From positions 692,391 to 756,390 of the forward strand of contig JAILWJ010000001.1 of assembly GCA_025699025.1 (NCBI GenBank): 64,000 nt of DNA, given 5' to 3'. Below the pieces are notes generated by a model. It saw only the letters and a program-made list of their open reading frames with translations. It made no database searches and had not been told where the DNA came from. Shown piece by piece: positions 15,531 through 50,111 of this stretch (position 1 is the stretch's first letter; each line of letters begins with the position of its first letter). The DNA comes from Nitrosarchaeum sp. (GTDB lineage: Archaea; Thermoproteota; Nitrososphaeria; Nitrososphaerales; Nitrosopumilaceae). The position numbers and the translations under genes are program-made.

Positions 15531-16463
15531 TTAGAAACCTTTGGGTAGAGTTCCTCGTGAAGCTTTGGGTGGTTCAGGTTGAGGCTTTGGTTCAAATCCT
15601 TTTGGTAAAGATCCACGTGTTGCTTTAGCTCGTTCTGCAATTTCCCTTTCGATGATTTTAGATTCAGCTTGTTGCGTCTCGACTCGTTCTTGTTCAAGTC
15701 TGTTTAGGTAATCTTGCTCATACTCTTCTAGTTGTTCTTTTCGTGACTTGTGTTGATCACCTGAAGAAGATGTTTGAGCTTTTGGTTGCTCAGAATCCTT
15801 TGGAAGAGTATTTGGTTTAGGTGGTGGTGGAGGGGCTTGTTGTGTTTGAGCTTTTGCAGCTACGCCCTCAACGGTCATAGCTGATCCACTGAAACTACCA
15901 AAGGTTTTGTTTGTTGGGTGGTATGCTAGTCTTGCCCTAGTTGCAAAGTACTGGTTTGATGGTTGTGTGTATCCCGTTACTTTGGTTTTTTGCTCGTTCC
16001 AATTTGATGTTGGAACCTTGCCTACTGGAGCAGTTCTTCTTACAAAGTATCTGTTTGGTGCTGGTGAATATCCAGTAACTGTTGCCCGATATTTGTGGAA
16101 ATCAGTCATTGGTGCATTCATGTACGCATTTTCTAGTGCATCGTTGAATGTTGTTGGAAGTTGTGATGTTTTCTCAGCTGGTTTTGGTGCATCTGCAGGT
16201 TTAGATTCTACTGGTTTTTCTGCGAATCCTTTTGGCAGTGTACCTTTTGGTTTGGTGGTTGCAGCTGGTCTTTCTTGTGGCTTTGGTGCCGGTTGTGGTG
16301 CTGGCTTGGTTTCTGCAGGTTTTGTCTCAGCTGGTTTTACCTCAGCTGGCTTGGTTTCTGCAGGCTTTGATTCTAGTTGTGTAGATAATTTTGATAGCTT
16401 TGCTTCGAGTTCTGCAATCTTGGCTTCAAGATCTTGTTTAGTTTTTGCCTTTTTGGTTGCCAT
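15531..16463 (-). CDS. Pro/Ala/Lys-rich coiled-coil protein with LPKGF motifs (long paralogue)
   Basis: 310 residues, cytosolic, no signal peptide. Order: coiled coil (8-32); PAETKPA-type repeats (33-60); GTLPKGF at 74-80; two related segments 33 residues apart, VTGYSPAPNRYF (129-140) and VTGYTQPSNQYF (162-173); a Gln/Pro stretch ending in PPPPPKP (about 207-217); a second charged coiled coil (240-280); GSLPKGF (284-290) and GTLPKGF at the very C-terminus (304-310). I do not recognise a family. Codons for residues 25-217 are identical in DNA to those of the paralogue at 16861-17541. Confidence 0.78.
   Translation of the reverse strand: MATKKAKTKQDLEAKIAELEAKLSKLSTQLESKPAETKPAEVKPAETKPAETKPAPQPAPKPQERPAATTKPKGTLPKGFAEKPVESKPADAPKPAEKTSQLPTTFNDALENAYMNAPMTDFHKYRATVTGYSPAPNRYFVRRTAPVGKVPTSNWNEQKTKVTGYTQPSNQYFATRARLAYHPTNKTFGSFSGSAMTVEGVAAKAQTQQAPPPPPKPNTLPKDSEQPKAQTSSSGDQHKSRKEQLEEYEQDYLNRLEQERVETQQAESKIIEREIAERAKATRGSLPKGFEPKPQPEPPKASRGTLPKGF
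15813..16391. repeat. 579-bp exact direct repeat, copy 1
   Basis: Every base from 15813 to 16391 equals 16891-17469 (constant offset 1078, line-by-line comparison, no mismatch). Both flanks diverge at once, including at synonymous sites in the first 25 codons, which points to gene conversion or a very recent duplication with flanking divergence. Confidence 0.95.
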
Positions 16464-16600
16464 TTACTAGGATAGAAATTGATTATTTATTTACATTTTG
16501 TTAGGTGGGAAGATTATGTGAAATAATTTCAAAAATTAAATCAAATCATTCAAATTTTAATATGTGTTGATCATAAAACGAATAATTCCAGATTCGGAAG

Positions 16601-16792
16601 TTAATCTGGCTCCCAAAACTGCATTACAAACATACAGTTATTGCACCGCCATAATCGCACATGAATGCCATTTTCAGTATCAGAAGCATATACTCCGTTT
16701 TCTAGCTTAGTAACACGCGGAAGATAATTCAGTTCTGGATTTTCAAGCCATTCGTTTTGACCACAGTTGGGACATTTGATTTGTGGAGGCAT
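16601..16792 (-). CDS. Zinc-ribbon protein (63 aa)
   Basis: CPNCGQNEW near the N-terminus and CNNCMFVMQFWEPD near the C-terminus form a four-Cys zinc ribbon with about 40 residues between the knuckles. No other domain. It lies on the same strand between the two LPKGF paralogues, so it is either their partner or a gene trapped by the duplication. Confidence 0.75.
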   Translation of the reverse strand: MPPQIKCPNCGQNEWLENPELNYLPRVTKLENGVYASDTENGIHVRLWRCNNCMFVMQFWEPD

Positions 16793-16860
16793 ACATCAAA
16801 GAATACACAATCAAAGAAGAATGTTGTGATTAAAAATAGAAAATAAAGAATGTTGTCGAA

Positions 16861-17541
16861 TTAGAATCCTTTTGGTAAAGTGCCTCTCTGTGGTTTAGGT
16901 GGTGGTGGAGGGGCTTGTTGTGTTTGAGCTTTTGCAGCTACGCCCTCAACGGTCATAGCTGATCCACTGAAACTACCAAAGGTTTTGTTTGTTGGGTGGT
17001 ATGCTAGTCTTGCCCTAGTTGCAAAGTACTGGTTTGATGGTTGTGTGTATCCCGTTACTTTGGTTTTTTGCTCGTTCCAATTTGATGTTGGAACCTTGCC
17101 TACTGGAGCAGTTCTTCTTACAAAGTATCTGTTTGGTGCTGGTGAATATCCAGTAACTGTTGCCCGATATTTGTGGAAATCAGTCATTGGTGCATTCATG
17201 TACGCATTTTCTAGTGCATCGTTGAATGTTGTTGGAAGTTGTGATGTTTTCTCAGCTGGTTTTGGTGCATCTGCAGGTTTAGATTCTACTGGTTTTTCTG
17301 CGAATCCTTTTGGCAGTGTACCTTTTGGTTTGGTGGTTGCAGCTGGTCTTTCTTGTGGCTTTGGTGCCGGTTGTGGTGCTGGCTTGGTTTCTGCAGGTTT
17401 TGTCTCAGCTGGTTTTACCTCAGCTGGCTTGGTTTCTGCAGGCTTTGATTCTAGTTGTGTAGATAATTTGTTTAATTTAGCTTCTAATTCTGCAATCTTG
17501 GCTTCAAGATCTTGCTTTGTTTGTTTTTTAGTAGCTACCAT
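16861..17541 (-). CDS. Pro/Ala/Lys-rich coiled-coil protein with LPKGF motifs (short paralogue)
   Basis: 226 residues, the same layout as the long paralogue up to PPPPPKP, after which it ends directly with QRGTLPKGF, so the second coiled coil and the GSLPKGF copy are missing. The start is ATG at 17541 (MVATKKQTKQ). Residues 25-217 are encoded by the exact 579-bp tract. Both proteins keep GTLPKGF as the extreme C-terminus, which argues that the free carboxyl end matters, for example as a docking motif. Confidence 0.78.
   Translation of the reverse strand: MVATKKQTKQDLEAKIAELEAKLNKLSTQLESKPAETKPAEVKPAETKPAETKPAPQPAPKPQERPAATTKPKGTLPKGFAEKPVESKPADAPKPAEKTSQLPTTFNDALENAYMNAPMTDFHKYRATVTGYSPAPNRYFVRRTAPVGKVPTSNWNEQKTKVTGYTQPSNQYFATRARLAYHPTNKTFGSFSGSAMTVEGVAAKAQTQQAPPPPPKPQRGTLPKGF
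16891..17469. repeat. 579-bp exact direct repeat, copy 2
   Basis: Second copy of the tract described at 15813-16391, in the same orientation. The 499 bp between copies hold the 3' end of this paralogue, the zinc-ribbon gene and the promoter and 5' end of the long paralogue. Confidence 0.95.
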
Positions 17542-17639
17542 TAAGTTTGATTGAAATTCCCGGGTTTATTTACATTTGGGTTGATTACCAGTACAAAATT
17601 TGATCAAGTTTTATAAGCAGAGAACGATCAGTTACAGTA

Positions 17640-18014
17640 ATGGATGATTTTGAAAAAGAATACCCAGGATTTGATTGGAAGAATACGCCTGCATACAAAC
17701 ATCCAGGTGGAAAAGATTGTCCGTGTCCAAAACACGAATACATCAGAGAGCAAATTAATTTTACAAAACAGGTAAACGAGAAAGGAAAAGAACCAGCAAA
17801 AGTGACTCTCAAGTTTTGTCCCGATCATTATAAGGTATACATGGAAGAAGTGATTCCTGCAATGCCATTGAAATATAGAATTCTAACAAAGATAGCACTA
17901 AAACTTGGAGCAATTCAAGTGGAGCAACTAAAATACATGGAATCGGATTTGTGTTTCTACTGTAAATTTGGGTCTGGCGGACATGAAAAAAAAGCCGAAC
18001 TGCCACCAATGTAA
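17640..18014 (+). CDS. Conserved hypothetical protein with cysteine pairs (124 aa)
   Basis: Soluble; contains DCPCPKHEY (near 28-35), CPDHYKVY (near 60) and CFYCKFG (near 106), together able to bind a metal. The N-terminus is acidic and aromatic (FEKEYPGFDW). Transcribed divergently from the short LPKGF paralogue and convergent with the DnaJ-like zinc protein, 3 bp between stops. No family recognised. Confidence 0.68.
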   Translation: MDDFEKEYPGFDWKNTPAYKHPGGKDCPCPKHEYIREQINFTKQVNEKGKEPAKVTLKFCPDHYKVYMEEVIPAMPLKYRILTKIALKLGAIQVEQLKYMESDLCFYCKFGSGGHEKKAELPPM

Positions 18015-44300: not shown

Positions 44301-45221
44301 TTGAATTCTAGCAATGTCGATAAGAAAAGTGAAGATACTGCAAATTCTGTCAAACAGAAACGAATTGAAGCTGAAAATATTTTAGAGAAACAAAGAATTG
44401 AAGCTAAGAGTCTTTTAGAGAATCAAAGAATTGAAGCTAAGAGTCTTTTAGAGAATCAAAGAATTGAAGCTAAGAGTCTTTTAGAGAATCAAAGACTAAG
44501 AGCCAAAAACATCAGAGACAAGTCACTAAACGAAGCTGAAAAATTACTTAGAGACACATTAACTGAATCAGAAAAAATCATTAATGATGCAGTAATTGAA
44601 GTTGAAGACATACTTGAACAGTGGAATATTCGTCTCAAAAAATTGAAGATGGAAGCAATAATCAAAATAGATTACATAAAACAAAGTGCAGAAATTGAAA
44701 TTAAAAATCTGAAAAATTCAGTACAGTCTATCATTCGAAACATGAAAACACTTGCAGAATTGGAAGAAAACAACCTAATGCATCTAGCAAATAACGAGTC
44801 AGACAATCTAGAAAGAATTGCAAAAATACAGGCCCAAAACCTAAACGAAATAGCTAAGACCATCTCTAAAAACATCACATCTACGGCACAGTATGAACCT
44901 GAGATGCTAGGTGAAATTGCCAAGATGTATGTCGAAAACCTGAAAAATGTTGCACTACTCGAGTGTGAAAAGCTAAAAGAAAACGCATTGATGGAAGATG
45001 CAAGACTAAAACAGTCTGCAAGTTTCATTGCAGACAAACTGAGGTCGCGTGCAATGGCATTTTCTGAGAACATAAGGCATACTGCTGTTATCGAATCTGA
45101 AAAATTACTATCACAAACAAAAGAATTTGCTGCAGAGACGGTAAAGGATGCCATTGAATGGAAATTCCAAAACCTAACATCCTTGCTCCAAACGAATATA
45201 AAAAAAAGAATATTAAAATAA
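44301..45221 (+). CDS. Coiled-coil protein with 11-residue tandem repeats
   Basis: 306 residues, all charged and helical, TTG start preceded by AGGAAA. Residues about 21-64 are four 11-residue repeats RIEAKSLLENQ, the first degenerate. An 11-residue period gives a right-handed coil, as in SpoU-like or apolipoprotein helices. The rest has Asn/Ile/Ala/Glu heptads (ANNESDNLERIAKIQAQNL...). It overlaps the metalloprotease frame at its 3' end. Probably a structural protein of the envelope region; function unknown. Confidence 0.72.
   Translation: MNSSNVDKKSEDTANSVKQKRIEAENILEKQRIEAKSLLENQRIEAKSLLENQRIEAKSLLENQRLRAKNIRDKSLNEAEKLLRDTLTESEKIINDAVIEVEDILEQWNIRLKKLKMEAIIKIDYIKQSAEIEIKNLKNSVQSIIRNMKTLAELEENNLMHLANNESDNLERIAKIQAQNLNEIAKTISKNITSTAQYEPEMLGEIAKMYVENLKNVALLECEKLKENALMEDARLKQSASFIADKLRSRAMAFSENIRHTAVIESEKLLSQTKEFAAETVKDAIEWKFQNLTSLLQTNIKKRILK
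44361..44492 (+). repeat. 33-bp tandem repeat, three exact copies plus one degenerate
   Basis: Units at 44394-44426, 44427-44459 and 44460-44492 are identical; 44361-44393 is a diverged copy. Each encodes RIEAKSLLENQ in the coiled-coil gene. In-frame copy-number change would alter coil length by 11 residues. Confidence 0.95.
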
Positions 45222-46109: not shown

Positions 46110-49100
46110 TCATTTCTTGTTGAGTACCACTACTAGTACAAACAAAAGAGAAACCATACCAAATATTACCAAAACAAAGGAATATGCAGGATATTGTGGA
46201 ACATAATTTTCCATCAAGAATTTATCAATTCTATCCTTACTCCATCCGATAGAAGTTAATTTTTCAGACAATTCCGCATCAGAGATATTTCTTTTGAGAT
46301 AATCACTGATGTGTGAAACGGAATCAGATTCCATATATAAAACACCTCCAAATCCATCGTCTTTTCCATCAGATACAAAAAAAGATATTTTTCCGACTTC
46401 TTTTTCGTTGAAATTTACCAGCAATCGATACATTCCACTTTCCCACTTTGTGTTTAATTTTAACGGCATGACATAATGTCCAGATTTATCAATCACAGTG
46501 GTTGCAACATGCATTGAATCATCAGGACGCAAAACAAGCAATCCCACAACATCTCCGCGTACTGCACTCTTTACAAATCCCTCAACCCTTACACTCAAGT
46601 CATGGTTATCAATAATGACAGAATTGTTGTTCTTAATTTGTGTAGTAGATCCGCCAGCCAAAGAGAATACTCGGATTGGTTCTGTAGAGGGCTTTTCTGG
46701 AACAAATACCGTTCCGGAGATGTTTTGTTTGTCAGGTTCTGTTTTAGTTTCTACGGGTTTAGAATGAACTTGTTCAACATTTTTATCTGAAGATTGAATG
46801 ATAGGAGGCTTTACTTCAAGTACCGATGGGATTGTAAAATATATTGGATGTCTGCCTTCATTCCATGTTTCCAATATTATATCAGAAGACATCATTGATT
46901 TTTTGAATGTTATTTCTGACTCCATCCACATAGAACGTCCTTCAAAAACAGTGTTTATGGTTGCGCTTTCAAACAATCCCTGTGAATCTACAATTGTTGG
47001 GTTTTTACCCTTTTCATAAATCAAATATGCATCACTTTTGGATACATCAGAAGTCCTATCGCGTATATTCAGGTACATTCCAAAATGTAAAATATTTGAA
47101 GTTGCTTCCTTGTCATCAATTTGGACACGTATCTTGACTTTATCGCCTAAATCAACTACCTTGTGCGGTAATGTTTCGTGCGGATCATACAGTCTGTAAA
47201 CGGTGCCTTGTTTTTCCGTAGAATCTAGAATTTCAAATCCTGTAAATCTAGGTAATGTGTCATCAGAGCTGCCAGTACTTGAGGATAGATTAGAGGCAGG
47301 TTCAATCACACTTATTGTCACAGAAGTAACCAAGCTAGATTCCATCCCATCATAAGACTGAAATGTAAAAACATCATCACCTACAAAGTTTTTGTCTGGA
47401 AGATATCTAAGATCAGGCGCAAGACCAAATATCGTACCGTGTTTTGGTTGCGCAACGATATCAAAAGTAAGAGGATCATCTTCAACATCTGATGAAGTCA
47501 AGGTGATGTATACCAGAGTATCTTTCTCAGTTACAACAGATTGACTATCTGCAACAGGGGCATCATTTACTGAAAGAATGGTGACACATGCGGTAGATAC
47601 ATTACTGTCAAATTCTCCATCATTTGCCTTAAAGGTAACACAGTCTTCCCCGTAATAGTTTGTATCAGGGGTGTATGTAAGATTGCCCAATGTTCCAGAT
47701 AAAACCCCATGAGACGGCGACGTTAGCAAAACAAATGTTAACGGATCATCTTCTACATCTGATGAAATCAGAATGTATTCATTCGAACCGTGATATGGAG
47801 TATCTTCATTTGTGGTAATTGCAACATCAGAGGTGATTGGCGGGTCATTTACGGGATTGATTGTAATGGATATGGTCGAGGTGTTGCTGTCAGCAAGACC
47901 ATCATTTGCCTTAAAGGAGAAACTGTCAGAGCCAAAGTAATTTTGATCTGGCGTGTATGTGACATTTGGCAGAGTGCCAGAAATAACACCATGTGAGGGT
48001 TGTGAGACGATTTCGTATGTTATTTCATCATTATCAGGATCATCTGCCTCTAAAGTGATGGCGATGGGAACATCTTCATTAATAGTAACTGATTGAGTGT
48101 ACGTTACAGGCTGATCGTTTACAGGTCCTACTTCCATGTATAATGTGGCAACATTACTGTCTAGTTCACCATCATTTACCTTAAAATCAAGGCTGTCAGA
48201 ACCAAAGTAATCCAGATCAGGAGTGTATGTCATAAATGGTGGTTCGCCGGAAAGAGTTCCATATAATGGTGCACTGACAAGAATGTATGAAAGTGTGGAA
48301 TCCTCAACATCTGATGCCACAGGAACTGTGTTTACAAATGGAATGTCCTCAGGAGTCGTAAAATTTATGGAGTATGCGACAGGAGGATCATTTATGGGAT
48401 TGATTGTAATTGATATTTTTTTGGTTATGCTGTACTCACTTCCATCAAAAACGCGAAACTGGAAACTGTCAGAGCCAAAGTAATTTTGATCTGGCGTGTA
48501 TGTAACATTTGGCAGAGTGCCAGAAATGACACCATGTGAGGGTTGTGAGACGATTTCGTATGTCAACGGATCATTTTCAACATCAGATCCAGTCAGAGTA
48601 ATTGCAAGAGGAGTATCCTCATCGGTTACAACAGATTGGCCATTTGCAACAGGAGCATCATTTACTGAAAGAATTGTAACACATGCAGTAGACACGTTAC
48701 TGTCAAATTCACCATCATTTACCTTAAAGGTAACACAGTCTTCCCCGTAATAGTTTGTATCAGGGGTGTATATGATGTCTGGCCATTCGCCTGACAAAAC
48801 CCCGTGGGATGTAGAAGACAGTATTGAGTACGTCAATACATCATCTTCCACATCAGATGCGCCTTGCAGGTTTTCATCCAAAGTAGAGTATGGCGTATCC
48901 TCGTTTGTGGTCACTGCAACATCATACGTAACAGGTGGGTCATTTACGGGATTGACTGTAATGGATACAGTCGAGGTGTTGCTGTCAGCAAGACCATCAT
49001 TTACCTTAAAGGAGAAGCTGTCAGAACCAAAGTAATTGGCGTTTGGAGTGTATGTAATGTTTGGGAGTGTACCAGATAAAAAGCCATATTCAACATCACG

Positions 49101-50111
49101 GGTAATAACAAACTGCAATGTATCTCCATCAACATCAGATGCAGAAGCCACAATAGATACAGAATTATCTTCATCAGTACTTACGGACTGACTATTTGTA
49201 ATAGGAATATCGTTGATGTTTCCAACATCGATTTGTATTGTTGCGATATTACTGTCAAAAATACCATCATTAGCTTTGAATGTAAACGAATCCGCACCAA
49301 AATAATCAGCATCGGGAGTGTAAATCACAGATGCACCATCACCAGAAAGTGAACCATGTATAGGATCAGACACAATAGTGTAAGATAATTCATCATCTCT
49401 TGCGTCAGATGCAGTCAAAGTAATTGCAATAGAAGTATCCTCCACTCCTTGTACATGTTGATCATCAGCAACAGGCTCTTCTGGAAAATGCAAGACCCAT
49501 ATGCGATTGTTGATAGAATCAGATACATATACAGACATGTCATCAATGTTTATTCCCATTGGAAATCGGAACTGTTCATCCCCACTGCCCAAAGAGCCAA
49601 ACTGCAGGAGATAGTTTCCTGCAGAATCAAACTTTTGTATTCTATGATTACCAGTGTCAGACACCAGTATTTTCCCATAATCATCTATTGTGATTCCTTC
49701 TGGACTTCGTAACTGTCCATTCCCACTGCCCAAAGAGCCAAACTGCAGGAGATAGTTTCCTGCAGAATCAAACTTTTGTATTCGGTTGTTGCTGGTGTCT
49801 GCCACGTAGATGTTGTTGCTACTATCTATGGCAATTCCACTTGGAGATCTGAACTGTCCATTATTGCTCCCTCTTGAGCCAAACTGCAGGAGATAATTGC
49901 CTGCAGAATCAAACTTTTGTATTCGGTTGTTGCTGGTGTCTGCCACGTAGATGTTGTTGCTACTATCTATGGCAATTCCACTTGGAGATTTGAACTGTCC
50001 ATCCCCACTGCCCAAAGAGCCAAACTGCAGGAGATAATTGCCTGCAGAATCAAACTTTTGTATTCGGTTGTTGCTGGTGTCTGCCACGTAGATGTTATTT
50101 GCATGAAACAC
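46110..50111 (-). CDS. Giant surface protein: NHL repeats and cadherin-like domains
   Basis: 1333 residues in this frame. Residues 1-185 are four 47-residue NHL-type beta-propeller units (YVADTSNNRIQKFDSAGNY...). Residues about 220-985 are eight cadherin-like/Big_9-type domains of about 95 residues with the repeating YTPDxNYFGSDSF and VNDPPV motifs, as in RTX and adhesin proteins. A C-terminal domain of about 330 residues ends in a TM anchor and KK. GTG start at 50111 is only the first codon of the open frame; the real start, with signal peptide, is in another frame upstream (50124-50272). Likely an extracellular adhesin or S-layer-associated protein. Confidence 0.85.
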   Translation of the reverse strand: MFHANNIYVADTSNNRIQKFDSAGNYLLQFGSLGSGDGQFKSPSGIAIDSSNNIYVADTSNNRIQKFDSAGNYLLQFGSRGSNNGQFRSPSGIAIDSSNNIYVADTSNNRIQKFDSAGNYLLQFGSLGSGNGQLRSPEGITIDDYGKILVSDTGNHRIQKFDSAGNYLLQFGSLGSGDEQFRFPMGINIDDMSVYVSDSINNRIWVLHFPEEPVADDQHVQGVEDTSIAITLTASDARDDELSYTIVSDPIHGSLSGDGASVIYTPDADYFGADSFTFKANDGIFDSNIATIQIDVGNINDIPITNSQSVSTDEDNSVSIVASASDVDGDTLQFVITRDVEYGFLSGTLPNITYTPNANYFGSDSFSFKVNDGLADSNTSTVSITVNPVNDPPVTYDVAVTTNEDTPYSTLDENLQGASDVEDDVLTYSILSSTSHGVLSGEWPDIIYTPDTNYYGEDCVTFKVNDGEFDSNVSTACVTILSVNDAPVANGQSVVTDEDTPLAITLTGSDVENDPLTYEIVSQPSHGVISGTLPNVTYTPDQNYFGSDSFQFRVFDGSEYSITKKISITINPINDPPVAYSINFTTPEDIPFVNTVPVASDVEDSTLSYILVSAPLYGTLSGEPPFMTYTPDLDYFGSDSLDFKVNDGELDSNVATLYMEVGPVNDQPVTYTQSVTINEDVPIAITLEADDPDNDEITYEIVSQPSHGVISGTLPNVTYTPDQNYFGSDSFSFKANDGLADSNTSTISITINPVNDPPITSDVAITTNEDTPYHGSNEYILISSDVEDDPLTFVLLTSPSHGVLSGTLGNLTYTPDTNYYGEDCVTFKANDGEFDSNVSTACVTILSVNDAPVADSQSVVTEKDTLVYITLTSSDVEDDPLTFDIVAQPKHGTIFGLAPDLRYLPDKNFVGDDVFTFQSYDGMESSLVTSVTISVIEPASNLSSSTGSSDDTLPRFTGFEILDSTEKQGTVYRLYDPHETLPHKVVDLGDKVKIRVQIDDKEATSNILHFGMYLNIRDRTSDVSKSDAYLIYEKGKNPTIVDSQGLFESATINTVFEGRSMWMESEITFKKSMMSSDIILETWNEGRHPIYFTIPSVLEVKPPIIQSSDKNVEQVHSKPVETKTEPDKQNISGTVFVPEKPSTEPIRVFSLAGGSTTQIKNNNSVIIDNHDLSVRVEGFVKSAVRGDVVGLLVLRPDDSMHVATTVIDKSGHYVMPLKLNTKWESGMYRLLVNFNEKEVGKISFFVSDGKDDGFGGVLYMESDSVSHISDYLKRNISDAELSEKLTSIGWSKDRIDKFLMENYVPQYPAYSFVLVIFGMVSLLFVLVVVLNKK
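49560..50110. repeat. 141-bp tandem repeats encoding NHL units
   Basis: Four near-identical copies; the marker CAAACTTTTGTATTC occurs at 49628, 49769, 49910 and 50051, exactly 141 bp apart. Each encodes one 47-residue NHL unit. The neighbouring copies differ by very few bases, so they are being homogenised. Confidence 0.9.

Follow-up and report, generated by a model that had tools for sequence, protein, structure and literature searches.

Concerted evolution maintained over long periods has rarely been documented for protein-coding genes of prokaryotes. The closest known case to the one reported here is the mtrA-1/mtrA-2 pair of Methanococcales and Methanomicrobiales, two genes of one operon that arose by an ancient duplication (Wang et al. 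2015, PMC4632066). One of the two copies gained an extra part by fusion, while the shared domain has been homogenised by long-lasting gene conversion (PMC4632066). A subsequent genome-wide survey of prokaryotes described 26 genes under long-lasting recurrent concerted evolution (Wang and Chen 2018, PMC6053082), of which seven were archaeal, all from methanogens; neither Nitrosopumilus nor any term beginning with Thaumarch- appears in its main text. The class is made up of cases that have lasted hundreds of millions of years, are seen in at least five species and have homogenised silent sites, and the products typically belong to one complex or form homopolymers, a feature that is not strictly defining (PMC6053082). 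In the bacterial tuf genes, too, conversion keeps the copies identical over a long time (PMC6053082).

The gene pair described here lies in a window of 64,000 nt (the whole stretch of DNA that was analysed), corresponding to positions 692,391-756,390 of contig JAILWJ010000001.1 of Nitrosarchaeum sp. (assembly GCA_025699025.1), an archaeon with a 1.7-Mb genome. Both genes, and all features of the pair given below in window coordinates, are on the minus strand, with the long gene (15531-16463, 310 aa) located downstream of the short gene (16861-17541, 226 aa). The short protein is composed of an N-terminal coiled coil, a Pro/Ala/Lys linker carrying a GTLPKGF motif (17302-17322), a conserved core (16927-17232) and a C-terminal RGTLPKGF (GTLPKGF at 16864-16884). 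The core is formed by two diverged half-repeats (VTGYxxxxNxYF), whose match was never equalled in 2000 shuffles. The long protein has the same layout, with its internal GTLPKGF at 16224-16244 and its core at 15849-16154 (placed by the 1078 offset from the short copy), and is extended at the C-terminus by a region that comprises a predicted helix (residues 241-281) and two further GxLPKGF motifs, namely GSLPKGF (15594-15614) and, at the C-terminus, GTLPKGF (15534-15554). A search of the whole genome with a degenerate DNA pattern for GxLPKGF returned five occurrences, all of them in these two genes. A 63-aa, zinc-ribbon-like CxxC...CxxC ORF, recognised by its reading frame and homologues, sits between the short and the long gene (16601-16792).

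The original prediction had drawn attention to 579 bp of exact identity between the two genes at a constant offset of 1078, and this was confirmed to the base (15813-16391 in the long gene versus 16891-17469 in the short gene). The tract corresponds to 193 codons, contains the internal GTLPKGF motif of each protein and is identical at 110/110 four-fold degenerate sites. The accompanying claims about its borders also held, since the genes differ at 19 of their first 72 nt, silent positions included, and the 3' ends are unrelated beyond the tract (226 aa vs 310 aa). The exact run is not a product of chance, because 5000 shuffles of the pair's aligned columns never gave a run exceeding 100, against the 579 observed. 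It is indeed the most striking repeat in the window, being the sole exact long repeat there, with the others about 65-95% alike. As separate observations, positions 44362-44495 hold a tandem repeat of about four copies of a 33-bp unit, a length divisible by three, that may correspond to a coiled-coil repeat. Positions 47334-50099 hold an array of diverged repeats, 68-89% alike and spaced at about 543-552 and 141 bp, whose product is perhaps a repeat protein, for instance a beta-propeller.

The gene family was present in 56 of the 101 relatives searched, all from one taxonomic family, the named ones being mostly Nitrosopumilus and other Nitrosopumilaceae. A wider search placed it in 132 of the 167 genomes of that family. 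One contig filed as a Nitrososphaeraceae archaeon (locus L033, sharing its contig with L143) carries the family together with the Nitrosopumilaceae gene order, and is probably misnamed or derived from a mixed bin. In 33 genomes both the short and the long copy could be measured, the comparison being made over 252 nt of the core. The core was identical between the two copies in 25 of these genomes, which represent 25 species and five genera, and its nearest relative was the copy from the same genome in 30 of the 33. Pooled within-genome differences at four-fold sites amounted to 24/1317, with 17 of the 24 coming from one genus. In the core tree the copies cluster by genome, and monophyly of all the short genes was rejected (p-AU 6.5e-7). 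Comparisons of sister species gave the same picture, as in eight out of ten all core differences were present identically in both copies (7/7, 7/7, 6/6, 14/14, 11/11, 16/16, 30/30 and 22/22). Thus, the check for concerted evolution that had been proposed, run here between species, showed tracts that are identical within genomes while both copies change together between genomes. These results strongly support gene conversion of an internal block and show the pattern to be family-wide among the Nitrosopumilaceae.

Exact repeats are classic traps for assemblers, and many short-read contigs of the relatives stop inside the gene, as would be expected of such a repeat. It could be argued that an assembler copied or smeared one gene into two. 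However, the flanks, promoters and 3' ends differ between the copies, both tract copies of the window are contained in one 776-kb contig, and the pair recurs in the 33 genomes, with identical cores in at least 11 single-contig assemblies, leaving an artefact with a negligible chance of being the explanation. Strong purifying selection on the protein core without any exchange of DNA is just as remote. The core is certainly highly conserved, with a mean column identity of 74%, and yet the silent sites of the window tract show no difference between the copies (0/110) while 9/38 four-fold sites of the core differ from the nearest sampled species. Identity between the copies is no lower at silent sites than at the others, which means that selection at the protein level is insufficient by itself. 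By a rough, uncorrected reckoning, this absence of silent differences would place the last homogenisation of the window tract recently relative to the split from the nearest sampled species.

While the interiors follow the genome, the outer parts of the genes follow the gene type. For 65 of the 66 upstream regions in the 33 genomes, the closest foreign counterpart belonged to the same gene type, and the tree of the upstream/5' regions clusters largely by gene type. At the N-terminus, the signatures AKKQTK and KRKAS/KAKT distinguish the two proteins, each gene keeping its own signature and upstream sequence. Both upstream types, the N-terminal signatures, the long-specific C-terminus and the intervening CxxC ORF are common to several genera, although the ORF, kept in many pairs, is missing from some of them. 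The relatives also have a common gene order: UbiD, a hypothetical gene, the short gene, the CxxC ORF, the long gene, a peroxiredoxin and a MIP channel. Since the upstream regions match by orthology within this fixed order, the duplication must be old, with only the interior being rewritten. These data establish that a single tandem duplication gave rise to the pair before most of the sampled Nitrosopumilaceae genera diverged. The other scenario contemplated in the original prediction, a recent duplication followed by 5' change, was consequently wrong, the pair, its order and the two promoter types being common to several genera.

A version of that scenario in which every lineage underwent its own recent tandem duplication, followed each time by 5' change and gain of a 3' extension, would likewise produce identical interiors within each genome, and duplication usually leaves its copies in tandem. 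Nevertheless, it would require the same two ends and the same order to be reinvented in every lineage, and both ends, the signatures and the CxxC ORF are common to several genera, with same-type upstream matches in 65/66 cases. The short and long types had thus separated before the genera did, and repeated fresh duplication is therefore very unlikely. A similarly low probability was attributed to lateral transfer from other species, in which the entire locus would have been replaced again and again instead of the two copies exchanging DNA with each other. Recombination among related marine archaea is plausible, but moving a locus would not in itself make its two copies alike, and the flanking genes are in place with ordinary divergence.

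Both genes also carry a short element upstream of their start codons that is conserved across the family. The box CAAATGTAAATAAA of the short gene (17565-17578) ends about 22 nt before the ATG, and the long gene has AAAATGTAAATAAA at the same spacing (16486-16499). In nearly all pairs, CAAATGTAAATAAA or a near-match stops 20-25 nt short of the start codon. Across the genome, the 14-mer is matched exactly once and with one mismatch three times, and the 13-mer AAATGTAAATAAA occurs there only before the short and long genes. The CAAATGTAAATAAA box is likely to be the core promoter, and its distance would fit that of a transcript with almost no leader. Farther upstream on the side of the short gene there is a TATA-like TTATAAAA, which can probably be assigned to the divergent gene 17640-18014. 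The idea that the upstream box contains a start-stop mini-ORF (ATG TAA) was discarded, several relatives being devoid of it.

Taken together, the locus corresponds to an old tandem duplication whose interiors have since evolved in concert, very probably by recurrent recombination. In most pairs, the longest identical stretch starts at codon 24-80 of the short gene and ends no more than about 13 codons from its stop, where the long-specific sequence begins, and the promoters and N-terminal ends are mostly outside the tract. In the proposed mechanism, the two direct repeats, or sister chromosome copies, would recombine homologously and repeatedly overwrite the interior of one gene with that of the other. 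The tracts would start at about codon 24-80 and mostly extend to the end of the short gene or its vicinity, beyond which the sequence is specific to the long gene, so that the promoters and the N-terminal coiled-coil ends would mostly be spared. The limits of the tract could be set either by loss of pairing at the mismatched ends or by selection for distinct ends.

When resolved as a deletion, the same pairing would yield a single gene with the 5' end of the short gene and the 3' end of the long one. Eight genomes (G014, G101, G102, G115, G127, G137, G156 and G188) carry just one gene, in which the upstream region is of the short type and the C-terminus of the long type. The CxxC ORF is gone in 8/8 of these fusions and the usual neighbours are kept, except that in G115 the contig ends just past the gene. 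Fusions in fragmented assemblies could be collapsed repeats, an explanation that is unlikely for G101 and G188 (loci L132 and L138) because each consists of a single contig, of 1.77 and 1.86 Mb, respectively. An ancestral single gene behind the fusions seems less likely, judging from their distribution, as they sit in genera in which many complete genomes have the pair. Other reduced forms were found in G148 and G151, with only the long gene and the CxxC ORF, and in G177, where a short-type gene is directly followed by the peroxiredoxin. The single-gene forms could be leftovers of recombination between direct repeats.

Homogenisation is not universal and can lapse, as indicated by genus g22 (genomes G025 and G041, the latter flagged as 8% contaminated; loci L060 and L061), in which 46 and 55 of the 252 core sites differ between the copies and the clustering is by gene type. 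Divergence of the two copies along their length, the outcome that had been put forward as evidence against exchange, was thus found in part, in these two genomes only; elsewhere the result for the pair stands. In a further genome (G047), which we take to be N. maritimus-like, only part of the gene is homogenised, with 11/252 core differences, and the copy from the same genome is not the nearest relative.

Both proteins are basic (pI 9.6-9.9), have a high content of Pro, Ala, Lys and Thr and carry a predicted helix at the N-terminus. No Pfam or NCBIfam model, MtrA included, matched the short or the long protein above its cut-off, and all sub-threshold matches were to coiled coils. Among these, ribosomal protein L29 was rejected as an identity, since it scored 16.1 bits against a cut-off of 24.5 in Pfam and 17.2 against 22.6 in NCBIfam, with the match covering the N-terminal coiled coil only. 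The PDB profile search matched fimbrial constructs as well as coiled coils over some 26 profile positions, which was attributed to low complexity or chance. AlphaFold2 modelled the long protein with a mean pLDDT of 57.8, being confident only in helices 9-31 and 241-281, and the core alone with a mean pLDDT of 51.8, both models being of low confidence. A search for papers naming the N. maritimus locus tags of the pair found none, a result of little weight given that the tags were estimated from position.

As for function, selection may keep both genes because their proteins cooperate via the shared core, perhaps in one scaffold or polymer to which the long form would add its C-terminal helix; this reading, drawn from the sequences, is tentative. 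A self-associating scaffold of both forms is the preferred function, with low confidence. More doubtful still is a fuller version, in which the interior would be actively held identical for co-assembly of paralogous subunits in a family-specific intracellular scaffold of ammonia-oxidising archaea, with GxLPKGF acting as a binding element and the gene-specific promoter box tuning the short-to-long ratio.

The resemblance to mtrA-1/mtrA-2 lies in the old duplication, in the extra part owned by one copy and in the homogenised shared part. The mtrA genes belong to Euryarchaeota, encode a methyltransferase subunit whose extra part is a transmembrane domain, and are unrelated in sequence to the present pair, which in turn has an uncharacterised product and deletion fusions between its copies in living lineages. 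The two tuf copies encode the same protein, whereas the present products differ at both ends. With respect to the features that mark long-lasting recurrent concerted evolution, the paralogues within a genome are closer to each other than to their orthologues (30/33, 25 identical cores and the core tree), identical cores extend over 25 species in five genera, well above five species, the duplication is older than the species split (65/66 upstream regions, 5' tree and gene order) and silent sites are homogenised (0/110 in the window tract, 24/1317 pooled). By these features, the pair can be regarded as belonging to the class and is, as far as the papers searched show, a new member of it.

The locus also brings its own internal controls, in the form of ends and promoters that escape, one genus in which homogenisation lapsed, and fusions by deletion in which the recombination itself is visible. 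In practical terms, it serves as a warning that short-read assemblies of these archaea are prone to break or collapse at the pair. In biological terms, the finding adds a case outside the methanogens, in the ammonia-oxidising archaea, one of the most abundant marine archaeal groups, and points to a conserved, family-specific protein without a known family.
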